Below, one piece after another: positions 926 through 34,149 of a stretch of 34,149 nt of DNA (within the stretch, counting starts at the first letter, position 1; every line of letters begins with the position of its first letter). A model generated the notes under the pieces. It was given only the letters and a program-made list of their open reading frames with translations, ran no database searches and was not told the origin of the DNA. This DNA comes from Bacteroidota bacterium. GTDB lineage: Bacteria; Bacteroidota; Ignavibacteria; Kryptoniales; JAKASW01. The position numbers and the translations under genes are program-made. The DNA lies in assembly GCA_021825585.1 (NCBI GenBank), contig JAKAGT010000036.1:1-34149 (forward strand). The letters are read 5' to 3'.

Positions 926-2416
926 CTAAAACCTGCGTGAAAAAAGGTGTTTTAGTGCCATGATCGAGTTGATAGTTTTTCATGCGACATAGCGGACATC
1001 AGAGCAATGGTGAAAGTTTTTTGATTTTATGTTGTGCATAATCAAAGACATCCTGGTAGAGACTGTTCCGTGGGAAGCGAAGTGTGGGAATATTGTGCGA
1101 GCGTACAAACTGTCCTGGCGTCAGCAAGAGACGATGACGGATGGTTGGGAGCGTGTACGATTGCCACACCGCTGGAAGACACAGTCGCTTGAACCAGATA
1201 ATCAGATTATATGCTAGCAGCGATAACTCAGCATATAAAGCGTTCGCTTCAAAAGAGTGCGTAGGCGCCGTTGCAAATGGGTAATCATCTTTGAGGACCC
1301 GTATGATCCGTTCCATTGCTGAGCGGCCTTGATAGAATTGGAATATATGATATGGTTCAAGCTCAAGATTGGTGACAATAACTGAATAGGCATATCGATC
1401 AATTGTAAAGAGTGTGGTTTGTGAAATACTATCCTGATCTGGTAACGTCCGCCTCAAGGCAACGAAACGCTCTTTGCGTTCCCACAGGTGAGGTTGGTAA
1501 GAGAATTCAGCGACAGAAAACGTTGGCGAGATTCTTCTATAGCGGAGGTCACCGACCATGGATTTCAGCGGAGCAGTCATGTGAGCAACAATGGTAAACT
1601 CGACGTGATTTTTCCTCAAAAACGAGACAAAATCGCCATCGTAGAACCCGGCATCGGCACGAAGACGGAGTCGGTCCTGATCAGGCAGTAGAGAGAAAAT
1701 TGTTTCGAGAAGTTCCCGGACTTGGTCCGCTGTATAAGCATTCCCCGGCCGGAGTAGTCCACCAAGACAATCACAACCATGAGCTTCGGTGACAACCAGT
1801 GGATGGTACGATTTCTTACCGGGATGAGAAGGATTATATCCCTTGACGACTCCCTCTTGGTTTCCGTACAGTGTCTTGGCAGTGGAGTCACAGTCAAGGA
1901 AGAAACTCGATCGAGCGCTTGGTAGCGCAAGAAAATGCATTCGCAGTTCATTGTGCACAGCGCGAACTTGCGGCAATAGTTCTGGCGCAGAACGAAGGAG
2001 GAACCGGCGTAACGTAGTAGGATCAGGAAAGTCCGGAAGTCCTGTGAGGTATTGGAAAACACCATTGGTTTTCAGAAGGGCGGAGACTTCTATCTTCTCT
2101 AATCCGACGATCATTGGATACAACAATGCAAGAAGAGATTCTGTTAAGCTGTAACGATTATTCCGTTGGCTGAAAGAAATGCGTTGGGATAAGTGAGAAC
2201 GAAAATGAAGTTGTTGAAGAAACTGGTGAAACAAATAAACACCACCAAAATGTGTGAGACCAGAAGCAACAAACTCGGTCTGTATTTTTCGAGATCCATA
2301 GCCCATTATTGAACCTAACCAATGGTTAGCCTCAATAATATAACGCATTCTTCCGTAACCCCTTGCAAAATAGATACTGTTCTGACTATTCAATGCCTTT
2401 TCACGCAGGTTTTAAG
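926..2416 (-). mobile_element. IS1380-family insertion sequence inside a cassette
   Basis: Near-perfect terminal inverted repeats bound the transposase gene: CTAAAACCTGCGTGAAAA from 926 on the left, and TTTTCACGCAGGTTTTAAG at 2398-2416 on the right. The element is about 1.49 kb. I see no clear target duplication next to these ends. It sits between the second gene of the membrane cassette (stop at 2491) and attC 2, so the cassette is enlarged but both its core boxes survive. Confidence 0.85.
999..2348 (-). CDS. IS1380-family transposase
   Basis: This encodes about 449 residues from the ATG at 2348; the same frame opens further upstream at a TTG at 2393, so the exact start is uncertain. The protein has the layout of IS1380/IS4-like DDE transposases: an N-terminal segment with GLTHFGGVYL, a first acidic motif in FFLDCDSTAKTLYG, a second in LRLRADAGFYDGDF, and a C-terminal AMERIIRVLKDDYPF motif carrying the third acidic residue, followed by a hydrophobic helix (LSLLAYNLIIWF). 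The three DDE-type acidic residues are therefore plausible at about residues 150, 228 and 345. No frameshift or internal stop is seen and both inverted repeats are present, so the element may be active. Confidence 0.87.
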   Translation of the reverse strand: MRYIIEANHWLGSIMGYGSRKIQTEFVASGLTHFGGVYLFHQFLQQLHFRSHLSQRISFSQRNNRYSLTESLLALLYPMIVGLEKIEVSALLKTNGVFQYLTGLPDFPDPTTLRRFLLRSAPELLPQVRAVHNELRMHFLALPSARSSFFLDCDSTAKTLYGNQEGVVKGYNPSHPGKKSYHPLVVTEAHGCDCLGGLLRPGNAYTADQVRELLETIFSLLPDQDRLRLRADAGFYDGDFVSFLRKNHVEFTIVAHMTAPLKSMVGDLRYRRISPTFSVAEFSYQPHLWERKERFVALRRTLPDQDSISQTTLFTIDRYAYSVIVTNLELEPYHIFQFYQGRSAMERIIRVLKDDYPFATAPTHSFEANALYAELSLLAYNLIIWFKRLCLPAVWQSYTLPTIRHRLLLTPGQFVRSHNIPTLRFPRNSLYQDVFDYAQHKIKKLSPLL

Positions 2417-4078: not shown

Positions 4079-4348
4079 ATGGCAATAATAAAATCTATAT
4101 CGAGCCTCAGAAACCGAACGCGCGAGATCGCCGAGATTTGTCATGAACAGGATGAACCGGTGTACCTTACTACGAACGGTGAAGGGGATTTGGTAGTAAT
4201 GAGCATAGATCACTACGAGCGCCTCAAGGCTCAGGCTGATCTTTTTGAGAAACTTGGAGTTGCACAAGCACAATCGGCGCAGGGTAAGAGAGGTATCACC
4301 CACAAACAGATGATGACCAAGCTCCGCCGCCGAACGAATGCCAAGTAG
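4079..4348 (+). CDS. Phd/YefM-type antitoxin
   Basis: This is an 89-residue protein with the N-terminal dimerising, DNA-binding fold of the Phd/YefM family: residues 4-30 match the 'SISSLRNRTREIAEICHEQ' pattern, and the beta-strand run EPVYLTTNGEGDLVVMS is typical, followed by the helix starting DHYERLKAQ. The C-terminal part is basic and would be the toxin-neutralising tail. GAGG lies 6 bases before the ATG. The gene overlaps the following toxin gene by 11 bases. By family precedent it would neutralise the toxin and repress its own promoter. It is on the plus strand, opposite to the attC orientation, so it must carry its own promoter within 4003-4078. Confidence 0.88.
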   Translation: MAIIKSISSLRNRTREIAEICHEQDEPVYLTTNGEGDLVVMSIDHYERLKAQADLFEKLGVAQAQSAQGKRGITHKQMMTKLRRRTNAK

Positions 4349-4643
4349 ATACAAACTCCGGTACCTTCCTGTTGCGCAGGATGATCTCATTTCTATCTTT
4401 GACCACATAGCTGAGGACAGCCTGAATCGGGCATCGGGATTTGTCGAGAAACTCGATAGGACTGTCGGGTTACTGGAGGACAACCCGTTGTTGGGACGAA
4501 TACCACGACACGAGAAGCTTCGAGAGTACGGCTACCGCGTATTGATTGTTGAGTCATATTTGGTGTTCTACGTTATTCGGGGTCACACGGTTGAGGTGCA
4601 CCGCGTTGTTCATGCTTCCCGAAATCTCGATCATCTCATTTAA
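4338..4643 (+). CDS. RelE/ParE-family toxin
   Basis: This encodes 101 residues with the RelE/ParE fold pattern: an N-terminal strand (YKLRYLPVAQDDL), two helices (LISIFDHIAEDSLNRASGFVEKLDRTVGLLEDN in part), then LLGRIP, and strands around YRVLIVESYLVFYVIRG and VEVHRVVHASRN. The NPLLGRIPRHEKLREYGYR segment resembles ParE/RelE toxins that carry the 'G..p.lr..r.yrv' motif. The C-terminal VVHASRNLDHLI is also family-like. I cannot tell whether it acts on ribosomes (RelE-like) or gyrase (ParE-like). It is the downstream partner of the Phd-type antitoxin, and the pair fills one integron cassette. Confidence 0.88.
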   Translation: MPSRYKLRYLPVAQDDLISIFDHIAEDSLNRASGFVEKLDRTVGLLEDNPLLGRIPRHEKLREYGYRVLIVESYLVFYVIRGHTVEVHRVVHASRNLDHLI

Positions 4644-8722: not shown

Positions 8723-9628
8723 TCATGTCGTTTTGGTCCCCTTCGGTCGTACGATCGATTCAATCGGACTTCTAATCTGTCCGAGTTCCTTCTTGCTAAC
8801 ATGGGTATATATTTCAGTTGTCCGCACGCTGCTGTGGCCCAATAATTCTTGAATGAATTTAATATCCGTACCTTGCTCTAGCAAATGCGTCGCGAAACTG
8901 TGCCGCAGCGTGTGTATCGAAACGTGCTTGGAAATACCAGCCTTGTTGACCGCCCTTTCAAAAACCCTTTCTGCACTCCGAATTGTGTACGGCTTTCCTT
9001 TCTCCTGCCCCTCAAAAAGCCATTTCTTCGGTCGAGATACCTTCCAGTAATCCCTTAGCCCTTCCAGAACCACTTCGGAAAGGATAGTATATCTATCCTT
9101 CTTTCCTTTCCCACCATGAATATGGATCATCATTCGGTCACTGTCGATATCTTCTAATCTTAGCCGTACCATCTCGCCTACCCGCAGCCCTGCAGAATAA
9201 ACTAGCATCAACATGATTTTGTGTTTTAGATTACCAAGCACCTCAAAAACACTCTTCACTTCTTCTGGCGAAAGGACTACAGGGAGTCTATGTGCCCTCA
9301 AAGGTTTCGGCAAACCCGAAATTAGAATTGGCTTACCGTACAACTCACCGTATAGAAATTTCAATGCACTCATAACCTGTGAAATCGACCCCGCTGAAAA
9401 ATGCTTGTCGTCGATTAAATGGATCAAGTAATTTCTGATGTCGGTTTCCGTCAACTCTCTCGGATGCCTTGGTGCAAAATAGGCTGCGAACGCCCTCAAA
9501 TGACTGCGGTACGACTTATAAGTTGCCGGAGAATAGTTGCGCAGCTTCAGTTCTCGCCTGAGCACTTCGAACAGCCCCGGCACACGTCCGGAACCGCCAC
9601 CGCCACCTTCCCGCAGAGTCGCCTTCAT
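8723..9628 (-). CDS. Xer/IntI-like tyrosine recombinase next to the cassette array
   Basis: This encodes 301 residues from an ATG at 9628 with GAGG four bases upstream. An N-terminal SAM-like core-binding domain (about 20-100) is followed by the catalytic domain with R149 (SAGLRVGE), K174 (GGKGKK), H239-R242 (HTLRH), H265 (LLGHSS) and the nucleophile Y274 (YTHV), all present. The end (LGQIRSPIE) recalls IntI proteins. The roughly 20-30 residue insertion that defines IntI, containing an ALxRKYP-type motif before the HxLR box, is absent: only about ten residues separate the LRDYW helix from WLFEGQ. Unusually, residues 8-14 are a Gly-rich run. It points toward the cassettes, as in the 'reverse' integrons of Treponema. 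It is the only candidate integrase for the array in this window. Confidence 0.85.
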   Translation of the reverse strand: MKATLREGGGGGSGRVPGLFEVLRRELKLRNYSPATYKSYRSHLRAFAAYFAPRHPRELTETDIRNYLIHLIDDKHFSAGSISQVMSALKFLYGELYGKPILISGLPKPLRAHRLPVVLSPEEVKSVFEVLGNLKHKIMLMLVYSAGLRVGEMVRLRLEDIDSDRMMIHIHGGKGKKDRYTILSEVVLEGLRDYWKVSRPKKWLFEGQEKGKPYTIRSAERVFERAVNKAGISKHVSIHTLRHSFATHLLEQGTDIKFIQELLGHSSVRTTEIYTHVSKKELGQIRSPIESIVRPKGTKTT

Positions 9629-26235: not shown

Positions 26236-26267
26236 TGAAACAAAGTACCCAGGGGTATTTACTTGTA

Positions 26268-26295
26268 GATTAAGTTAATGTTAACAGATTGTTAT
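26268..26295 (-). promoter_or_regulatory. Pho-box-like operator upstream of pstC
   Basis: Three hexamers on the minus strand are spaced exactly 11 bases apart: ATAACA (26295-26290), TTAACA (26284-26279) and TTAATC (26273-26268). The TTAACA-N5-TTAACA arrangement is that of PhoP/PhoB-type binding sites. It ends 33 bases before the pstC start, a fitting place for phosphate-starvation control. Confidence 0.6.
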
Positions 26296-26306
26296 GGAAT
26301 TAACAG

Positions 26307-27449
26307 CTACGAGCCTGTCTTGCGGCCCAAATCCGCGTTTTTGACGTGTTTACCGTTCTGCACTACTACCCTTAACAACCCCTTGCTACCCTCTACAACC
26401 GAGCCTGTCAGTAAATTGTCAGTACGGTTGTCAGTATTACCCTCCAACAATCTGTCAGTAAACCCCTCCACGGACGTGCGGGCCTTTTCCGCGTCGGCCC
26501 GGACGTAATACCTTTCCGTAATTCTAACGGACGCATGACCGAGCAACTTCGCCAGCGTGAACGGTGTTACCGTCTCTGCCATAACGCTTGCGAATGTGGT
26601 ACGCAAGTTGTGGAGGTGGTAATCTGGCACGCCAACAGATCGCACAATGTCTTTGAAGTGATTCGTTAGGCTTTCGCGTCCGTACTTGAACACGTTCACG
26701 CGCCCAGGGGCATGAGCGCGGACAGCCTCAAGCACCGGGATAAGTTTTTCCGGTAGCAGCACGACACGCTGCTTGTCACCTTTCGTGCCGTAGTGTAGTG
26801 TTGCGGTACGGTCGTCAAGATTGACATCGTCCCATCGAAGCGACACAGCTTCGAGCCGTCTGCATCCGGTGAACAGTAGAAACAGGTACACAGCCCGGTA
26901 CTCTAAGTTCTCAGCGTCCAGGGCGACGAGAAACTTGTCGAGAGCTTCGCGTTCGAGCGGCGTCGGGATTCGTACCGGCACCTTGACATTCTTTACCTCG
27001 CGCCAGACCGATTGCTCAATATAACCCCATCGGGCCGCCAGTTTGAACGCCACCTTATATGCTGCAAGATACACCGCCGCCGTCGCGGGTTGACGGGTAG
27101 CCTGTAGGTGGGCGATATGCCGGTCGGCGTCCTCCACGGTAATCCGTCTCAGGTCGCTAACGCGCTCCACGTCTACCGTCTCAGCGAGAGCATCGAACGC
27201 ATACCCGTAGGTGCGTACCGTGCCCGGCGTTAAGGTATCCTTAAAGTGCTGCATGACAACCTCCCTGAACTCCGACCACGAAATGGCCTTGATAGCCGGG
27301 AGATCATTCCCCCGGCTATCAATCGTCCTCTGGCGCAACCTGGCGGTTCGCTCGTCCTTAGTTTGGAGCGATTTTACCCGTCGAGTCTTGCCGCTGCCGG
27401 TCGAATAGAACCATATCGAACTTTTCTTGTCTCGGAAAATCGAACTCAT
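26307..27449 (-). CDS. Phage tyrosine integrase
   Basis: This encodes 380 residues from the ATG at 27449, which has GGAGGA seven bases upstream. The N-terminus (MSSIFRDKKSSIWFY) is of the type that binds arm sites; a core-binding domain follows at about 55-150. Catalytic residues are R197 (TGCRRLE), K223 (YGTKGDK), H280-R283 (HNLR), H305 (LLGHAS) and Y314 (ERYYV). The protein is longer than Xer proteins, with a C-terminal extension (about 325-380) of low-complexity sequence rich in TDNL-like repeats. It would insert the phage next to pstC. Its start overlaps the end of the ImmA-like gene by 92 bases in another frame. It is unrelated in layout to the integron-associated recombinase. Confidence 0.93.
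   Translation of the reverse strand: MSSIFRDKKSSIWFYSTGSGKTRRVKSLQTKDERTARLRQRTIDSRGNDLPAIKAISWSEFREVVMQHFKDTLTPGTVRTYGYAFDALAETVDVERVSDLRRITVEDADRHIAHLQATRQPATAAVYLAAYKVAFKLAARWGYIEQSVWREVKNVKVPVRIPTPLEREALDKFLVALDAENLEYRAVYLFLLFTGCRRLEAVSLRWDDVNLDDRTATLHYGTKGDKQRVVLLPEKLIPVLEAVRAHAPGRVNVFKYGRESLTNHFKDIVRSVGVPDYHLHNLRTTFASVMAETVTPFTLAKLLGHASVRITERYYVRADAEKARTSVEGFTDRLLEGNTDNRTDNLLTGSVVEGSKGLLRVVVQNGKHVKNADLGRKTGS
26406..26460 (+). repeat. Four phased TGTCAGTA repeats (candidate integrase arm sites)
   Basis: TGTCAGTA occurs at 26406-26413, 26417-26424, 26429-26436 and 26453-26460, all on the plus strand, with steps of 11, 12 and 24 bases. They lie in the 3' end of the integrase gene, 100-150 bases from the inferred attachment core, where arm-type integrase sites would be expected. 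Confidence 0.55.
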
Positions 27450-27840
27450 TGAGCAGTCCTCCATGTAAGTGTATGAGACGTTCGAGAAACCCGATCAGCC
27501 GCCGTAACTCCACGCCCTCCGGAACCTCACGACCTCGGAGAGTAAACCATGTGGCGGCGAACAGGTTAGCGTAGGTGTCCTCGTCGTCGGTGTCGAGGAA
27601 CCGCCACGCCTCAGTATAGGCGTAGTGATGAAATAACTCGTGCCACAACGTCCATTGTCGTTCGCGGGACAACAGTGTGTTATTGACTAAAATGACGCCG
27701 TGTGTAGGTAGGTACGCGCCGTGGAGGGGACGCTTGAAGTCCCTCGTACCCACAATATGCAATCCCTCCTGTTGCGCAAACTCTTCCGGAGTGTAGCCGG
27801 TGTCGCGTAGCCGCGCATACAAATAAAACGGACGGTACAT
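27358..27840 (-). CDS. ImmA/IrrE-family metallopeptidase
   Basis: This encodes 160 residues from the ATG at 27840, with AAAGG eight bases upstream; the frame extends to 27888 without a better site. The zinc-peptidase motif HELFHH is at 67-72, and further acidic residues (FLDTDDEDTYANLFAA, about 81-96) supply the third ligand, as in ImmA/IrrE. In ICEBs1 and related elements such a protease cleaves the repressor encoded beside it, triggering induction. The HTH repressor gene lies immediately upstream on the same strand, so the two probably form such a pair. The gene's 3' end overlaps the integrase start by 92 bases. Confidence 0.88.
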   Translation of the reverse strand: MYRPFYLYARLRDTGYTPEEFAQQEGLHIVGTRDFKRPLHGAYLPTHGVILVNNTLLSRERQWTLWHELFHHYAYTEAWRFLDTDDEDTYANLFAATWFTLRGREVPEGVELRRLIGFLERLIHLHGGLLNEFDFPRQEKFDMVLFDRQRQDSTGKIAPN

Positions 27841-29746: not shown

Positions 29747-30051
29747 CGCGCAAGAAACCCAAGAAAACCAAGGAAGTCCGCGAGGCGCTATCCTGCACTT
29801 GCCCGGCTGAGGAAATGCAGTCTTTTGGCCACAACGTCTACGGACAGGAGATGTTTTTGTGCAAGAGACACGCGCATTGGCGTCTCGTCGGAGAAAAACT
29901 CACTCGTGCCGAGTATGCTCGACAGGTAGCGGCGAAGCGCGAGGAACTCGCAAACCATTTAACAGAAGAGGACACCATTGGAAGAGACACCGCAACAGTT
30001 ACCCCCGACGCCGATACTACAGACGACGCCGGAACTCAAACAACTAACTAA
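29743..30051 (+). CDS. Hypothetical phage protein (102 aa)
   Basis: This encodes 102 residues from a GTG that overlaps the previous stop. The N-terminus is very basic (RKKPKKTKE). Cysteines and histidines in SCTCP, FLCKRHAHW suggest a single small zinc site (about residues 18-45). The C-terminal third is acidic and Thr-rich (ATVTPDADTTDDAGTQ) and overlaps the next gene's start by 74 bases in another frame, so that tail may be a by-product of the overlap. Function unknown. Confidence 0.6.
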   Translation: MTRKKPKKTKEVREALSCTCPAEEMQSFGHNVYGQEMFLCKRHAHWRLVGEKLTRAEYARQVAAKREELANHLTEEDTIGRDTATVTPDADTTDDAGTQTTN

Positions 30052-30709
30052 GGCGCTTGCGTCGGCTCAGGCTGAATACAGGCCGCTCGTGAGAAACAAG
30101 ACGAATCCGCACTTCCAAAGTGACTACGCGGATTTGCAAGCAGGTATCAACGCGACGCGAGAGGCGTTGCGAAAACACGAACTGGCCGTCGTACAACTCC
30201 CCGCTGTGATGCCGGGTGTAAACGGTGGCGCTCGTGTTGAGGTTACAACAATACTCGCGCATAGCTCAGGCCAGATGATCGTCAACACCCTAGCGATCCC
30301 TCTAATCAAAGCGGACGCACAGGGCGTTGGCAGCGCCATTACATACGGACGCAGATACAGCTACGAGTCGATTACCGGCCTCGCACCTGTTGATGGCGAC
30401 GACGACGGCAACAGCGCAAGCGAGAAGGAACAAGGTAAACCGGTCGCGCAGGGACAGAAGAAGCCGGAGGCGGCAAAGCAAACCGCAACTGCCAAGACGC
30501 CCGACGAGAAAACAAAAGCTTTCCTTGATGCCATGACGGGCTTCAAAACATTCCTCGGAGACGCTAAGTACGAACAGGTGCTCAAGAATCAGAAATTCGA
30601 GAATGCCGAAAACATCACTACGAGCACCGACCGGAATAAGGTCTACAAGGCTATGTCGTTAGCGGTGGACGTACAGAATGCAGCCAAGAAAGCGACGGGT
30701 GCGGCATGA
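29978..30709 (+). CDS. erf: ERF-family single-strand annealing protein
   Basis: This encodes 243 residues from a TTG at 29978 with AGAGGA five bases upstream. The ERF superfamily core spans about 18-145: LTKALASAQAEYRPLVRN, NPHFQSDYADLQAGI, ATREALRKHELAVVQ, then a segment like VTTILAHSSGQMIVN, and the family-specific AQGVGSAITYGRRYS near 112-126, ending with DDDGNSA. Members anneal complementary single strands in phage recombination and genome circularisation. The Lys/Ala/Gln-rich linker (150-175) leads to a small helical C-terminal domain. It is coupled to the Gp157-like gene by a four-base overlap. Confidence 0.92.
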   Translation: MEETPQQLPPTPILQTTPELKQLTKALASAQAEYRPLVRNKTNPHFQSDYADLQAGINATREALRKHELAVVQLPAVMPGVNGGARVEVTTILAHSSGQMIVNTLAIPLIKADAQGVGSAITYGRRYSYESITGLAPVDGDDDGNSASEKEQGKPVAQGQKKPEAAKQTATAKTPDEKTKAFLDAMTGFKTFLGDAKYEQVLKNQKFENAENITTSTDRNKVYKAMSLAVDVQNAAKKATGAA

Positions 30710-31230
30710 GTGCGCCCCTATACCAGATTCACGCGGACATAGCCCGACTGATTGATGAATACAACTCTGCCGAATCCGACGAGGACTTGCAGCGCATCGA
30801 GACGGAGCTTAACAGTCTCAACATGAACCTCGAAGAGAAGGTTGTGAATATCGGGTACGTGATCCTCAACCTGCAAGCCGACAACAGGGAGCTTGACGGC
30901 CAGATCGCAAAGTTCGCAGTCGAGGTTGACCGACTTAAAACGACGAAGGCCGTGCGGGACAATCGTATCAAGCGGCTCAAAGACGACTTGCTTGCCGCGA
31001 TGGAAACGGCGCGACTGCCGAAGGTTAAGACCGCCGACATTAGCGTCACCGTAGCGAAGAACGGTCAGCCATCAGTCAACGTAACCGACGCCTCGAAGGT
31101 GCCGGACAAATACAAGATCATCCAAGACCCGCTTGTCGATAAAAAGGCGATAGCGAGGGACTGGCAGGAAACCCACGAAGCCCCGGATGGGGCGGAGGTA
31201 ACGCAGGGTAAACACTTACTCATTAGATAG
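30706..31230 (+). CDS. Siphovirus Gp157-family protein
   Basis: This encodes 174 residues starting at an ATGA overlap with the ERF gene. The product is mainly helical with a strong coiled coil (about 20-100, containing LEEKVVNIGYVILNL, then ADNRELDGQIAKFAVEVDRL in part). A beta-rich C-terminus has the KVKTADISVTVAKNGQPSV and VPDKYKI motifs typical of the siphovirus Gp157 family, often found beside ERF or RecT recombinases. Its exact role is not established; resistance to superinfection or a role in recombination has been suggested for relatives. Its position supports a recombination or replication function. Confidence 0.85.
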   Translation: MSAPLYQIHADIARLIDEYNSAESDEDLQRIETELNSLNMNLEEKVVNIGYVILNLQADNRELDGQIAKFAVEVDRLKTTKAVRDNRIKRLKDDLLAAMETARLPKVKTADISVTVAKNGQPSVNVTDASKVPDKYKIIQDPLVDKKAIARDWQETHEAPDGAEVTQGKHLLIR

Positions 31231-31239
31231 GAAGGTGAC

Positions 31240-31464
31240 ATGGACGACAGCAAGGTCAAGCTAACCGGACTATGGAAAAACACATCCAAGAACGGTAAGG
31301 AATACTACAAAGGTTCGCTCACGTACTCGTCGGATATTCTAATCTATCTAAACGAGAACAAGCGGAACGAGAAAGACCCCGACGCCACGCTTTATATCGT
31401 CACAAAGAAGCCAAAGGCTGACGGCGCGACGGCACCGAGCGCCGCAGAAGATGCTCCCTTCTAA
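31240..31464 (+). CDS. Small protein with SSB-like acidic C-terminal tail
   Basis: This encodes 74 residues from an ATG with GGAAGG upstream. The first 55 residues are beta-rich: VKLTGLWKNTSKNGKEYY, GSLTYSSDILIYLN and DATLYIVTKKPK. This layout is like small OB-fold-type or DUF736-like proteins. The last residues, AAEDAPF, resemble the acidic tail ending in PF by which single-strand DNA-binding proteins recruit partners. Between the Gp157-like gene and the helicase, such a role would fit, but it is inferred. The protein is much shorter than a normal SSB. Confidence 0.65.
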   Translation: MDDSKVKLTGLWKNTSKNGKEYYKGSLTYSSDILIYLNENKRNEKDPDATLYIVTKKPKADGATAPSAAEDAPF

Positions 31465-31473
31465 ATAGGGCTG

Positions 31474-31547
31474 TTGGGCGTAGCTCAGATGGCAGAGCGC
31501 CGGGGCGAAAGCCTCGCGCGACGTGGGTTCGACTCCCACCGCCCAAC
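31474..31547 (+). tRNA. tRNA-like gene with aberrant anticodon arm
   Basis: The acceptor stem is perfect (TTGGGCG 31474-31480 with CGCCCAA 31540-31546). The D arm is GCTC/GAGC with an eight-base AGATGGCA loop. The T arm is perfect (GTGGG/CCCAC) with the consensus loop TTCGACT. The anticodon arm is odd: CGGGGC (31501-31506) pairs with GCCTCG (31511-31516) around GAAA, a GNRA tetraloop. The alternative seven-base loop GCGAAAG would give anticodon GAA (Phe) but lacks U33 and leaves a C-C mismatch in the stem. No CCA is encoded. It may be called as tRNA-Phe or undetermined by automatic tools. Confidence 0.7.
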
Positions 31548-31583
31548 CTCATTTCTAACTATCACCAATCACAGAGGTACATT

Positions 31584-31805
31584 ATGGCGCAGGCCACAAG
31601 GGAACCTAACGAGTTCCAACCCATAACCATTACTATCGAAACAGCCGATGAAGCCGAGGCGCTTTGGCACCGATTAAATGTCGGGGTGGAGCAGCGGTTA
31701 ACCGCCTACTACCAGACGGAAGGCGTTGACGCGAAGCGTATCGAGGCCGCTGCCGACGTTCTGTTTAACGTGTGCCGCCCATACCTTCGGCCATGGAGGG
31801 CGTAA
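31584..31805 (+). CDS. Hypothetical phage protein (73 aa)
   Basis: This encodes 73 residues from an ATG with AGAGG about 7 bases upstream, starting 37 bases after the tRNA-like gene. The sequence (FQPITITIETADEAEALWHRLNV) predicts a beta strand followed by helices, and it contains no cysteine motif or membrane segment. The stop overlaps the next start (TAATG). No family is recognised. Confidence 0.6.
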   Translation: MAQATREPNEFQPITITIETADEAEALWHRLNVGVEQRLTAYYQTEGVDAKRIEAAADVLFNVCRPYLRPWRA

Positions 31806-32134
31806 TGAGCGACGAACAGTTTTCTCACCCCATCGCAGACGCACCCTGCGACAGCTGTAAACTCGAAAAGGTGTGTAAGCAGTACTTCCTCGCGTGCGAC
31901 GACTTTGCGCAGTTTGTCGCTGAGGCGGGAACGTTACCGGAGCACTACGGTGAGTCCGGTGCATGGAGGAAAACGCCAGAGGAATCGGTGCTTCGTCAGC
32001 CGTCGCGCAAGATGTATCGCCGGGCGGGGATGAATGTCGGTACGGGTCAGGTAGAGCGGGAACTTACGCCGTCACAGGCCGAAGAGGTACAAGCAGAGAT
32101 CACCACGATAGCAAGAGAGGTGACTATTGGGTGA
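31805..32134 (+). CDS. Hypothetical phage protein with cysteine motif (109 aa)
   Basis: This encodes 109 residues from the ATG at 31805, with GGAGG upstream; the frame is open further left but that start is inside the preceding gene. Near the N-terminus CDSCKLEKVCKQYFLACDDF (about 14-33) has four cysteines in the C-x2-C-x5-C pattern, similar to small metal-binding phage proteins of unknown role. The remaining part is charged and helical. It overlaps the next gene by eight bases. Confidence 0.6.
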   Translation: MSDEQFSHPIADAPCDSCKLEKVCKQYFLACDDFAQFVAEAGTLPEHYGESGAWRKTPEESVLRQPSRKMYRRAGMNVGTGQVERELTPSQAEEVQAEITTIAREVTIG

Positions 32135-32666
32135 GTTTAAGGCGGTCGTTGACAGTGGCGAACGCCGTACTTTCGACACCGGAAGCGTGCGCGACATGAG
32201 CGCCGGGAAAGGTCGATTCGACCTTATGCCCGTGTACCCTCTTATGCGTCTCGCGCAACACTACGAGAACGGCGCGACAAAGTATGACGCCCGGAACTGG
32301 GAAAAGGGGCAGCCGTTAGGTGCGTACCTCGATAGTGCTATTCGACACACGTTGAAACTGCTCGCCGGATGGAGAGACGAAGATCATGCGGCTGCGGCGA
32401 TTTGGAACCTTATGTCGTTCATTCAGACGCAAAGGTGGATTGAGCAAGGTAAGCTCCCTAAAACACTTGACGACCTAAGCGGGACGCTCGAATGGCAACA
32501 CCCCGTTCGGGCGCTTGACACAGTAGCAGAAAGGGAAACGCAACATGACAACGGAAACGGTACGAGTGAGCAAGGCGCTTCTGTCGGCCAAACAAACGCC
32601 GCCCCTTACGAGGGCTATTGTTCTACTGTCGCTACGCCCCGCTTTGACGGCGAAAGAACTAAGTGA
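32127..32666 (+). CDS. dATP/dGTP diphosphohydrolase-like protein (DUF5664)
   Basis: This encodes 179 residues from a TTG with AGAGGTG upstream. Residues about 28-105 carry the pattern of the phage dATP/dGTP diphosphohydrolase N-terminal domain: GRFDLMPVYPLMRLAQHYENGA, KYDARNWEKGQPL, then AIRHTLKLLAGWRDEDHAAAAIWNL in part. The ExxxD- and H-containing helices fit the MazG-like all-alpha fold. Relatives hydrolyse purine deoxynucleotides, in some phages to bias the pool toward 2-aminoadenine; no PurZ is in view. The last 40 residues overlap the next gene in another frame and look non-conserved. Confidence 0.8.
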   Translation: MGEFKAVVDSGERRTFDTGSVRDMSAGKGRFDLMPVYPLMRLAQHYENGATKYDARNWEKGQPLGAYLDSAIRHTLKLLAGWRDEDHAAAAIWNLMSFIQTQRWIEQGKLPKTLDDLSGTLEWQHPVRALDTVAERETQHDNGNGTSEQGASVGQTNAAPYEGYCSTVATPRFDGERTK

Positions 32667-32991: not shown

Positions 32992-33289
32992 ACCGCTCGG
33001 TCGATGGGAGCTTGAGATGGCTCAACGGCTACTACGTTGCAGGCTCCCGAAACCGATACTGCAATTCACCGACCACCTATCAAAGCACGGTCACAAGGGC
33101 GTCACGGACGGTCAGCGTTGGCAACTCTATAAGTATGCTCACCACTTCCGCTTACAGATGCCGGAGTACGAGCGTGAGGTGGTGCTGTGGCTCGGACAGC
33201 ATAAGCGACCAGAACCGGAGAGGTCCGTACTTGAATCTGTTAAGCCCAAACACCCAGACAATCAGTTGAAATTATTTGAGAAGGTATGA
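32975..33289 (+). CDS. Hypothetical phage protein before DnaB (104 aa)
   Basis: This encodes 104 residues from the ATG at 32975 (MDAQSKPLGRWELEMAQRL); it overlaps the previous gene by 17 bases. The sequence is basic and helical, with PILQFTDHLSKHGHKGVTDGQRWQLYKYAHHF in part, and ends DNQLKLFEKV. The stop overlaps the helicase start (ATGA). In many phages a small protein in this position helps load the helicase, but no loader motif is visible, so the role is open. Confidence 0.62.
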   Translation: MDAQSKPLGRWELEMAQRLLRCRLPKPILQFTDHLSKHGHKGVTDGQRWQLYKYAHHFRLQMPEYEREVVLWLGQHKRPEPERSVLESVKPKHPDNQLKLFEKV

Positions 33290-34149
33290 CTAACGATGAA
33301 ATCATAAGCACCGAAAAGGCTGTGTTGGGCGCAATGCTTGGAGACAACAGTTGCGTGCCGGAGGTGGTGGCAGTACTTAAACCGGAGTGCTTCTATGACG
33401 GAAACAACCGCAACGTAATGCGTGCTATCGTGGACTTGTATGCGGCAGGCAAACCGATAGACAATATCACCGTCAAGGAGCGCCTGCGGGCTAACCACCA
33501 GCTACCTCCGGGTGGTGGCTCGTCATATCTCAACGAGTTAATGAACTCCGTGGCAACGTCGGTACACGCGCAGACTCACGCCGAAATAGTGCATGACCAT
33601 TATATGCGGCGCGAAATCCTGCGTGTGTTGGCATCAGGTAAACAACTCGCCGCGAAGCACACGACACCGTTCGAGTTAATGGACACGGTGCTTGGTGAGT
33701 TGGCCGCCATTGACGACCCGCGCAATACGTCACGAGTAAAAGCTGTCGCGGAGGTGCGCGACGAGGTTATGCGGGACGTAATCGACATCGTGGAGCACGG
33801 CAAGCCGATTGGCATACAGACGGGCTTTACCGACCTCGACAGGATTTTAGGTGGTCTCCAAAAGACCGACCTTATTATCCTTGGTGCGCGGCCATCTGTC
33901 GGCAAGACGGCCCTCGCTTTAGCGGTAGGCGCGAAAGTTGCGGTGCGCGGAACGCCCGTACTACTCGTCTCCCTTGAGATGGGGAGAAGAAAACTCGTGC
34001 ATAGGATCGCGTCAATGTCGGGCGCGGTGGTGCCGACGCAGATAAACCTCGGACAAGTATCGCCGGAAGAGCTTCGGCGCATCTTTGAAGCTCAAGACGA
34101 CCTATACTCTGCCCCGCTGTTCATCGACGACACGCCGGGTCTCACATTG
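33286..34149 (+). CDS. dnaB: Replicative DNA helicase DnaB (partial)
   Basis: This gene runs off the right edge after 288 codons. The N-terminal domain (about 5-105) has the DnaB pattern STEKAVLGAMLGDN, LKPECFYDGNNRNVMRAIVDLY and ELMNSVATSVHAQTHAEIV in part. The ATPase domain begins near residue 170 with GIQTGFTDLDRILGGLQKTDLIIL, followed by Walker A ARPSVGKTAL (about 203-212) and LLVSLEMG. It is the hexameric helicase that unwinds DNA at phage replication forks, and with ERF it sets the replication-recombination module. It starts at an ATGA overlap with the preceding gene. Confidence 0.95.
   Translation, partial: MTNDEIISTEKAVLGAMLGDNSCVPEVVAVLKPECFYDGNNRNVMRAIVDLYAAGKPIDNITVKERLRANHQLPPGGGSSYLNELMNSVATSVHAQTHAEIVHDHYMRREILRVLASGKQLAAKHTTPFELMDTVLGELAAIDDPRNTSRVKAVAEVRDEVMRDVIDIVEHGKPIGIQTGFTDLDRILGGLQKTDLIILGARPSVGKTALALAVGAKVAVRGTPVLLVSLEMGRRKLVHRIASMSGAVVPTQINLGQVSPEELRRIFEAQDDLYSAPLFIDDTPGLTL

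Follow-up and report, generated by a model that had tools for sequence, protein, structure and literature searches.

What use could a phage have for a tRNA gene whose product is probably unable to read a codon? The question is raised by a gene at 31474-31547(+) of the window (the whole stretch of 34,149 nucleotides of a Bacteroidota contig that was analyzed), which combines a complete tRNA body with an anticodon arm closed into a hairpin and lies within a prophage. The presence of tRNA genes in phages has long called for an explanation, mostly sought in codons; non-decoding phage tRNAs with intact bodies, sometimes as the sole tRNA, would suggest that the body has functions of its own. The occurrence of similar genes in unrelated viruses suggests that certain phage tRNAs might serve a purpose other than decoding, with simple decay as an alternative. 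The answer that we tentatively prefer, at a probability of about 0.47, is a prophage-borne non-decoding tRNA (pseudo-tRNA), the body of which has been retained for a role as a processing signal and/or in relation to tRNA-binding enzymes.

Sequence and fold of the tRNA-like gene

The gene is recognized as tRNA-derived by the covariance model of Rfam RF00005, its score of 41.9 bits exceeding the gathering cut-off of 29 bits (E 8.8e-6), and ARAGORN calls it (as 31474-31548) as the only tRNA in the window, with no isotype ("tRNA-???"). Among the 47 tRNA-model matches in the whole genome, it is the second weakest. Its parts, with stems and conserved bases read by eye from the sequence, are as follows:

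31474..31547 (+), tRNA-like gene, from U1 to C73 and without an encoded CCA
31474..31480 (+), 5' strand of the acceptor stem, UUGGGCG, 7/7 pairs with 31540-31546
31483..31498 (+), D arm, GCUC-AGAUGGCA-GAGC, 4/4 pairs, G18 and G19 present
31501..31516 (+), closed anticodon arm, CGGGGC-GAAA-GCCUCG (positions 28-43), 6 bp with a GNRA loop, as judged from folding energies
31517..31522 (+), C44 (opposite C27, unpaired) and variable region GCGAC, one base more than usual
31523..31539 (+), T arm, GUGGG-UUCGACU-CCCAC, 5/5 pairs, canonical T loop
31540..31547 (+), 3' strand of the acceptor stem, CGCCCAA, and C73

All three body stems are complete, and the bases of tertiary contacts (U8, A14, G15, G18, G19, A21, and C48) are kept together with the T loop, in agreement with the preliminary description of this DNA, which had called the acceptor, D and T arms textbook. 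The order from the D to the T stem is G26, C27, the hairpin (28-33 paired with 38-43), C44 and GCGAC, with a C.C mismatch at 27-44 and a spacing of 24 nt vs. the usual 22-23 nt.

The whole RNA has a minimum free energy of -37.4 kcal/mol (z -3.4 vs. dinucleotide shuffles). When individual folds were enforced, the zipped 6-bp arm with the GAAA loop yielded -33.7 kcal/mol, and the zipped arm with a bulged 2-bp extension -37.4 kcal/mol, vs. -24.6 kcal/mol for an open 7-nt loop on a 5-bp stem with the C.C mismatch and -25.3 kcal/mol for a 7-nt loop on a 3-bp stem. The zipped 6-bp arm with GAAA, thus, beats the seven-base-loop reading by about 8-9 kcal/mol, and the probability of the C33-G38 pair in the computed fold is 0.999. 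The earlier account of the arm (a 6-bp stem with a GAAA loop, no U33, one mismatch) proved exact.

U33 is present in each of the other 46 tRNA genes in this genome, and none (0/46) has C-G at 33-38. The tRNA-like gene has C33 and, in its best fold, a 6-bp arm with a 4-base loop in place of the seven-base loop with U33 on a 5-bp stem that is characteristic of a functional elongator tRNA, and no isotype was derived by ARAGORN from its anticodon. Because the arm is predicted to gain ~8-9 kcal/mol over the seven-base-loop form, normal decoding is very unlikely; the preliminary statement that such an RNA could not decode normally is well supported by the closed loop, the absent U33 and an arm longer by one base. 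Judged by structure only, the gene qualifies as a bacterial pseudo-tRNA (tRNA-Other type), i.e., a tRNA fold without decoding.

The host tRNA set is complete, including tRNA-Phe(GAA). The suggestion of a decayed tRNA-Phe would fit the nominal bases 34-36 of the tRNA-like gene, which read GAA, but not its acceptor end, where C73 and U1:A72 differ from the host tRNA-Phe (G1:C72, A73). As in tRNA-His, a G at position -1 is able to form a pair with C73; such a pair has an appreciable likelihood of arising by chance.

Prophage setting and search for relatives

The prophage runs from its integrase gene onward, and the contig ends at 34149. The genes relevant to the position of the tRNA-like gene are listed below:

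26307..27464 (-), tyrosine-type phage integrase at the prophage edge (PF00589, 3.7e-20)
29978..30709 (+), ERF/Erf-like ssDNA annealing protein (PF04404, 4.5e-22; phrog_2324)
30706..31230 (+), Siphovirus Gp157 / Mu Gam-like end protection protein (PF05565, 7.8e-30; phrog_253)
31240..31464 (+), small ORF of 74 aa, ending 9 nt upstream of the tRNA-like gene, no Pfam/PHROG match
31584..31805 (+), small ORF of 73 aa, beginning 36 nt downstream of the tRNA-like gene, no Pfam/PHROG match
31805-32134, small ORF between the 73-aa ORF and the dATP/dGTP diphosphohydrolase-domain protein
32127..32666 (+), dATP/dGTP diphosphohydrolase N-terminal domain protein (PF18909; phrog_801)
33286..34149 (+), DnaB-like helicase, truncated where the contig ends (phrog_19, 1.5e-54)

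The tRNA-like gene sits between two genes of the early/replication operon of the prophage, downstream of ERF and Gp157 and about 4 kb away from the integrase. No tRNA was detected at the integrase-side junction (26236-26306); the far junction lies beyond the contig end, and a contig carrying the rest of the prophage was looked for and not found. Other features of the window, recognized by eye only, include two overlapping small ORFs at 4079-4643 (89 and 101 aa), which resemble an antitoxin of the Phd/YefM type and a toxin of the RelE type, as well as a transposase-like ORF (999-2393, minus strand) and a second tyrosine recombinase-like ORF (8723-9628, minus strand), both outside the prophage.

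No orthologue of the tRNA-like gene was found with prophage proteins, prophage DNA or the tRNA body with a free anticodon arm as queries. Comparison of the Gp157, ERF and DnaB proteins with viral contigs yielded no match or, for ERF, only distant ones (at 37-39%), and neither the 8-kb prophage stretch nor the flanking small ORFs matched phages. Two distant matches of Gp157 were found in 100 related genomes, with no tRNA near either of them (ARAGORN). A strict GNRA-arm pattern had no match in viral and genome contigs and, among 391 genomes of the class, retrieved the gene of the window only; a same-lineage pattern with the anticodon arm left free had no match in viral contigs. One match in the phylum (G549), a truncated tRNA without the hairpin, was rejected as a relative form.

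Closed and irregular anticodon arms in unrelated phages

Looser patterns, run on viral and genome contigs, demanded an intact D-arm end, the T loop, C33, G38 and S at positions 32 and 39, with acceptor pairing left free; all counts below refer to viral matches. Because these elements are required, the patterns favor intact bodies and closed arms, and the existence of closed arms among the matches is not a rate, the closed arm being partly built into the search. The unrelated phage tRNA genes retrieved include those with 7-bp stems and the tetraloops UUGU (L232), CAGA (L281), GGAU (L287) and GCAA (L064), those with 6-bp stems and GCGA (L062) or UUGA (L304), and one with a shorter closed arm of 5 bp and CUUU (L258). 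Other tRNA genes are located close to L062, L064, L232 and L304, and a 3' CCA is encoded in L064 and L304. Single tRNA matches of their contigs are L287 (42 kb), about 0.7 kb upstream of recT, and L258 (92 kb), directly upstream of DNA polymerase A and after a small acidic ORF; a search of viral contigs for relatives of the latter polymerase returned only L258 itself. The arm of L064 (GCCGGGGCGCAAGCUUCGG) matches that of the tRNA-like gene (GCCGGGGCGAAAGCCUCGC) at 16 of 19 positions, with different bodies, and this likeness may be due to chance. The set L060/L064/L071/L072 was rejected as a case of conservation, as its members are 100% identical and represent a single phage.

Non-canonical anticodon arms (5 closed and 20 otherwise irregular) are present in 25 of the 38 viral matches with at least 4 T-stem and at least 3 D-stem pairs. 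Within this group, 6-7 of 7 acceptor pairs are retained in 22/25 genes and all 7 in 12/25, vs. 0/42 unrelated background matches reaching 7 pairs. Since the patterns made no demand on the acceptor stem, these values indicate that broken arms go with intact bodies. The loops of the comparable phage tRNA genes are varied and share no motif.

The preliminary description had singled out the GNRA form as one to be sought in related phages. GNRA loops are found in 2/28 intact viral matches, i.e., they are neither conserved nor enriched in comparable phage tRNA genes; a GNRA-capped class of phage tRNA-like genes, not being over-represented, was rejected. The tetraloop itself is probably incidental, and any reading that depends on it is thereby weakened. 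A separate observation concerns a Novosphingobium mangrovi contig (L110:7733-7804), in which a tRNA-Phe(GAA)-like gene with C33 and the loop CCGAAAG lies directly before a tRNA-Ala-like gene; it may be a mobile-element tRNA.

A blast search with the tRNA-like gene led to an unannotated counterpart in Lactobacillus phage A2 (NC_004112 38396-38466; L307), the only tRNA match in this complete 43-kb genome. Both genes are lone tRNA matches of temperate phages, retain the acceptor, D and T arms intact, lack U33 and have an anticodon arm that can close on a 4-base loop; the A2 gene differs in its loop (AUAA), its weak bulged stem, its body sequence and its phage family and, as far as tested, is analogous and not homologous. 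A copy identical to the A2 gene over 70 bases is carried by a plasmid of L. paracasei (Lacticaseibacillus paracasei), vs. 12 substitutions in 208 aligned bases beside the gene (P about 0.03, marginal and post hoc), and the A2/plasmid homology ends at the 3' end of the gene. Two further degenerate tRNA-like stretches flank 38396-38466 in A2 (at about 38.27-38.75 kb). Genes of this kind are missed by annotation or left without an isotype, and a body-only function would be testable in cultured phages such as A2.

Retention, decay and other explanations

Taking these observations together, we suggest that the tRNA-like gene, probably co-transcribed with the flanking genes of the operon, would yield an RNA excised by RNase P and 3'-end processing. 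RNase P and the 3'-end enzymes read the acceptor/T domain, and the anticodon arm is unneeded. With its whole body kept and its anticodon arm closed into a 6-bp hairpin, the RNA would be unable to read codons and, most likely, would be kept by selection for work of the body only, marking the cut between the mRNAs on either side and/or tying up tRNA-body-binding enzymes. Of these roles, operon processing by RNase P and 3'-end enzymes would be the simplest one fitting the position of the gene.

Retention of the body is favored by its intactness next to a closed arm. In a simple simulation of decay by uniform changes, scored for at least 3 changes in the arm together with an undamaged body, this outcome was obtained at most about 3% of the time; the simulation loses most of its force, since one event (e.g., template switching) could have changed the arm. 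The same reading is further supported by the unrelated phage genes sharing this form (L232, L281, L287, L064, L062, and L304), by the acceptor pairs kept in 22/25 viral genes with non-canonical arms and, marginally and post hoc, by the identity of the A2 gene in the plasmid next to a flank with 12 substitutions. In addition, the lone-tRNA cases L258 and L287 lie upstream of polymerase A and recT, respectively, comparable to the gene of the window, which lies downstream of ERF and Gp157. The lack of an orthologue, the varied loops without a shared motif and the bias of the patterns weaken it. A broader proposition, that phages repeatedly make "bodies without anticodons", i.e., stable non-decoding closed-arm RNAs retained in replication operons, where they would direct processing by RNase P/Z or bait body-recognizing enzymes or defence effectors, appears rather unlikely.

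A limited literature search brought up no account of closed anticodon arms in phage tRNA genes. The closest known kind is that of bacterial pseudo-tRNAs such as Bacillus cereus tRNA-Other, which was judged inactive in translation and forms part of a longer regulatory transcript (PMC3399842). Both are non-translating tRNA-like RNAs tied to acquired DNA, with bodies callable as tRNA; tRNA-Other has a Trp (CCA) anticodon and belongs to a genomic island, whereas the gene of the window has a closed arm and belongs to a phage early operon.

Nearly as likely as a retained body is a recently decayed phage tRNA (possibly a tRNA-Phe, given the nominal GAA), in which decoding ended with a small number of changes, or a single template switch, in the anticodon arm, leaving no function and a body not yet eroded. 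This is consistent with the heterogeneity of broken-arm phage tRNA genes in loop and stem, with the lack of tetraloop enrichment and of an orthologue, and with a host set already supplied with tRNA-Phe(GAA); moreover, deletion of U33 from CUGAAAG would leave the 6-base CGAAAG, as seen between the CGGGG and CCUCG strands. It is less easily reconciled with the confinement of every lesion to the arm (the simulated outcome of at most about 3%), with intact body arms in most comparable phage genes, and with the at least 3 separate edits between this arm and a canonical one.

A decoy, or nuclease-resistant bait against host tRNA-attacking systems, which would offer no loop to anticodon nucleases and occupy acceptor-end or body-recognizing effectors, is improbable. 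Some phage tRNAs, the anticodon loops of which are changed yet still readable, are known to circumvent anticodon nucleases by loop mutations (PMC10264068), a closed loop being an extreme form of such a departure from the host form, and phage tRNAs are also known to counter tRNA-cleaving defences (PMC11555353). These phage tRNAs still decode, whereas the RNA considered here cannot replace a cleaved tRNA. As a lure for anticodon nucleases it is unlikely, with no loop to bind; bait for acceptor-end or body-recognizing effectors is possible.

Less probable is a working tRNA with an unusual loop of 8 nt (GCGAAAGC) or 6 nt (CGAAAG) that opens on the ribosome: suppressor tRNAs with enlarged anticodon loops exist, but the present RNA has no U33, its closing pairs form at a probability of about 1, and it carries the C.C mismatch at 27-44. 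The least probable reading, a remnant of tRNA-dependent lysogeny or of an attachment site, is disfavored: in other hosts, temperate phages have a tRNA gene replacing one broken by integration (PMC10865867), but those tRNAs are decoding ones, associated with a tRNA attachment site, and such an origin is not indicated here because there is no tRNA at the integrase-side junction, the only one on this contig, the gene itself lying inside the operon.

Two minor observations concern the tRNA genes of the host. The tRNA-His of the host (G000:C67:9317-9391; L012/L313) and of eight genus relatives (L314-L321) reads GCTGGCG...CGCCAGT-A, with c or t at -1, i.e., it has G1:U72 and A73 and not the usual G-1:C73 identity pair. 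A tRNA-His exception without the usual G-1:C73 has been described for Alphaproteobacteria, and the host form resembles it. Tandem repeats with units of 133 bp and about 309 bp are located downstream of tRNA-Pro(CGG) and tRNA-Pro(TGG) (L042:1379-1810, corresponding to G000:C86 at about 124.2-124.7 kb, and G000:C22 at about 74.5-75.2 kb). Each repeat unit contains a partial tRNA-Pro copy without the 5' acceptor strand, in which the anticodon arm is a 7-bp hairpin (TGGCGCG-CCT/CTT-CGCGCCA, with TAGCGCG in one copy).
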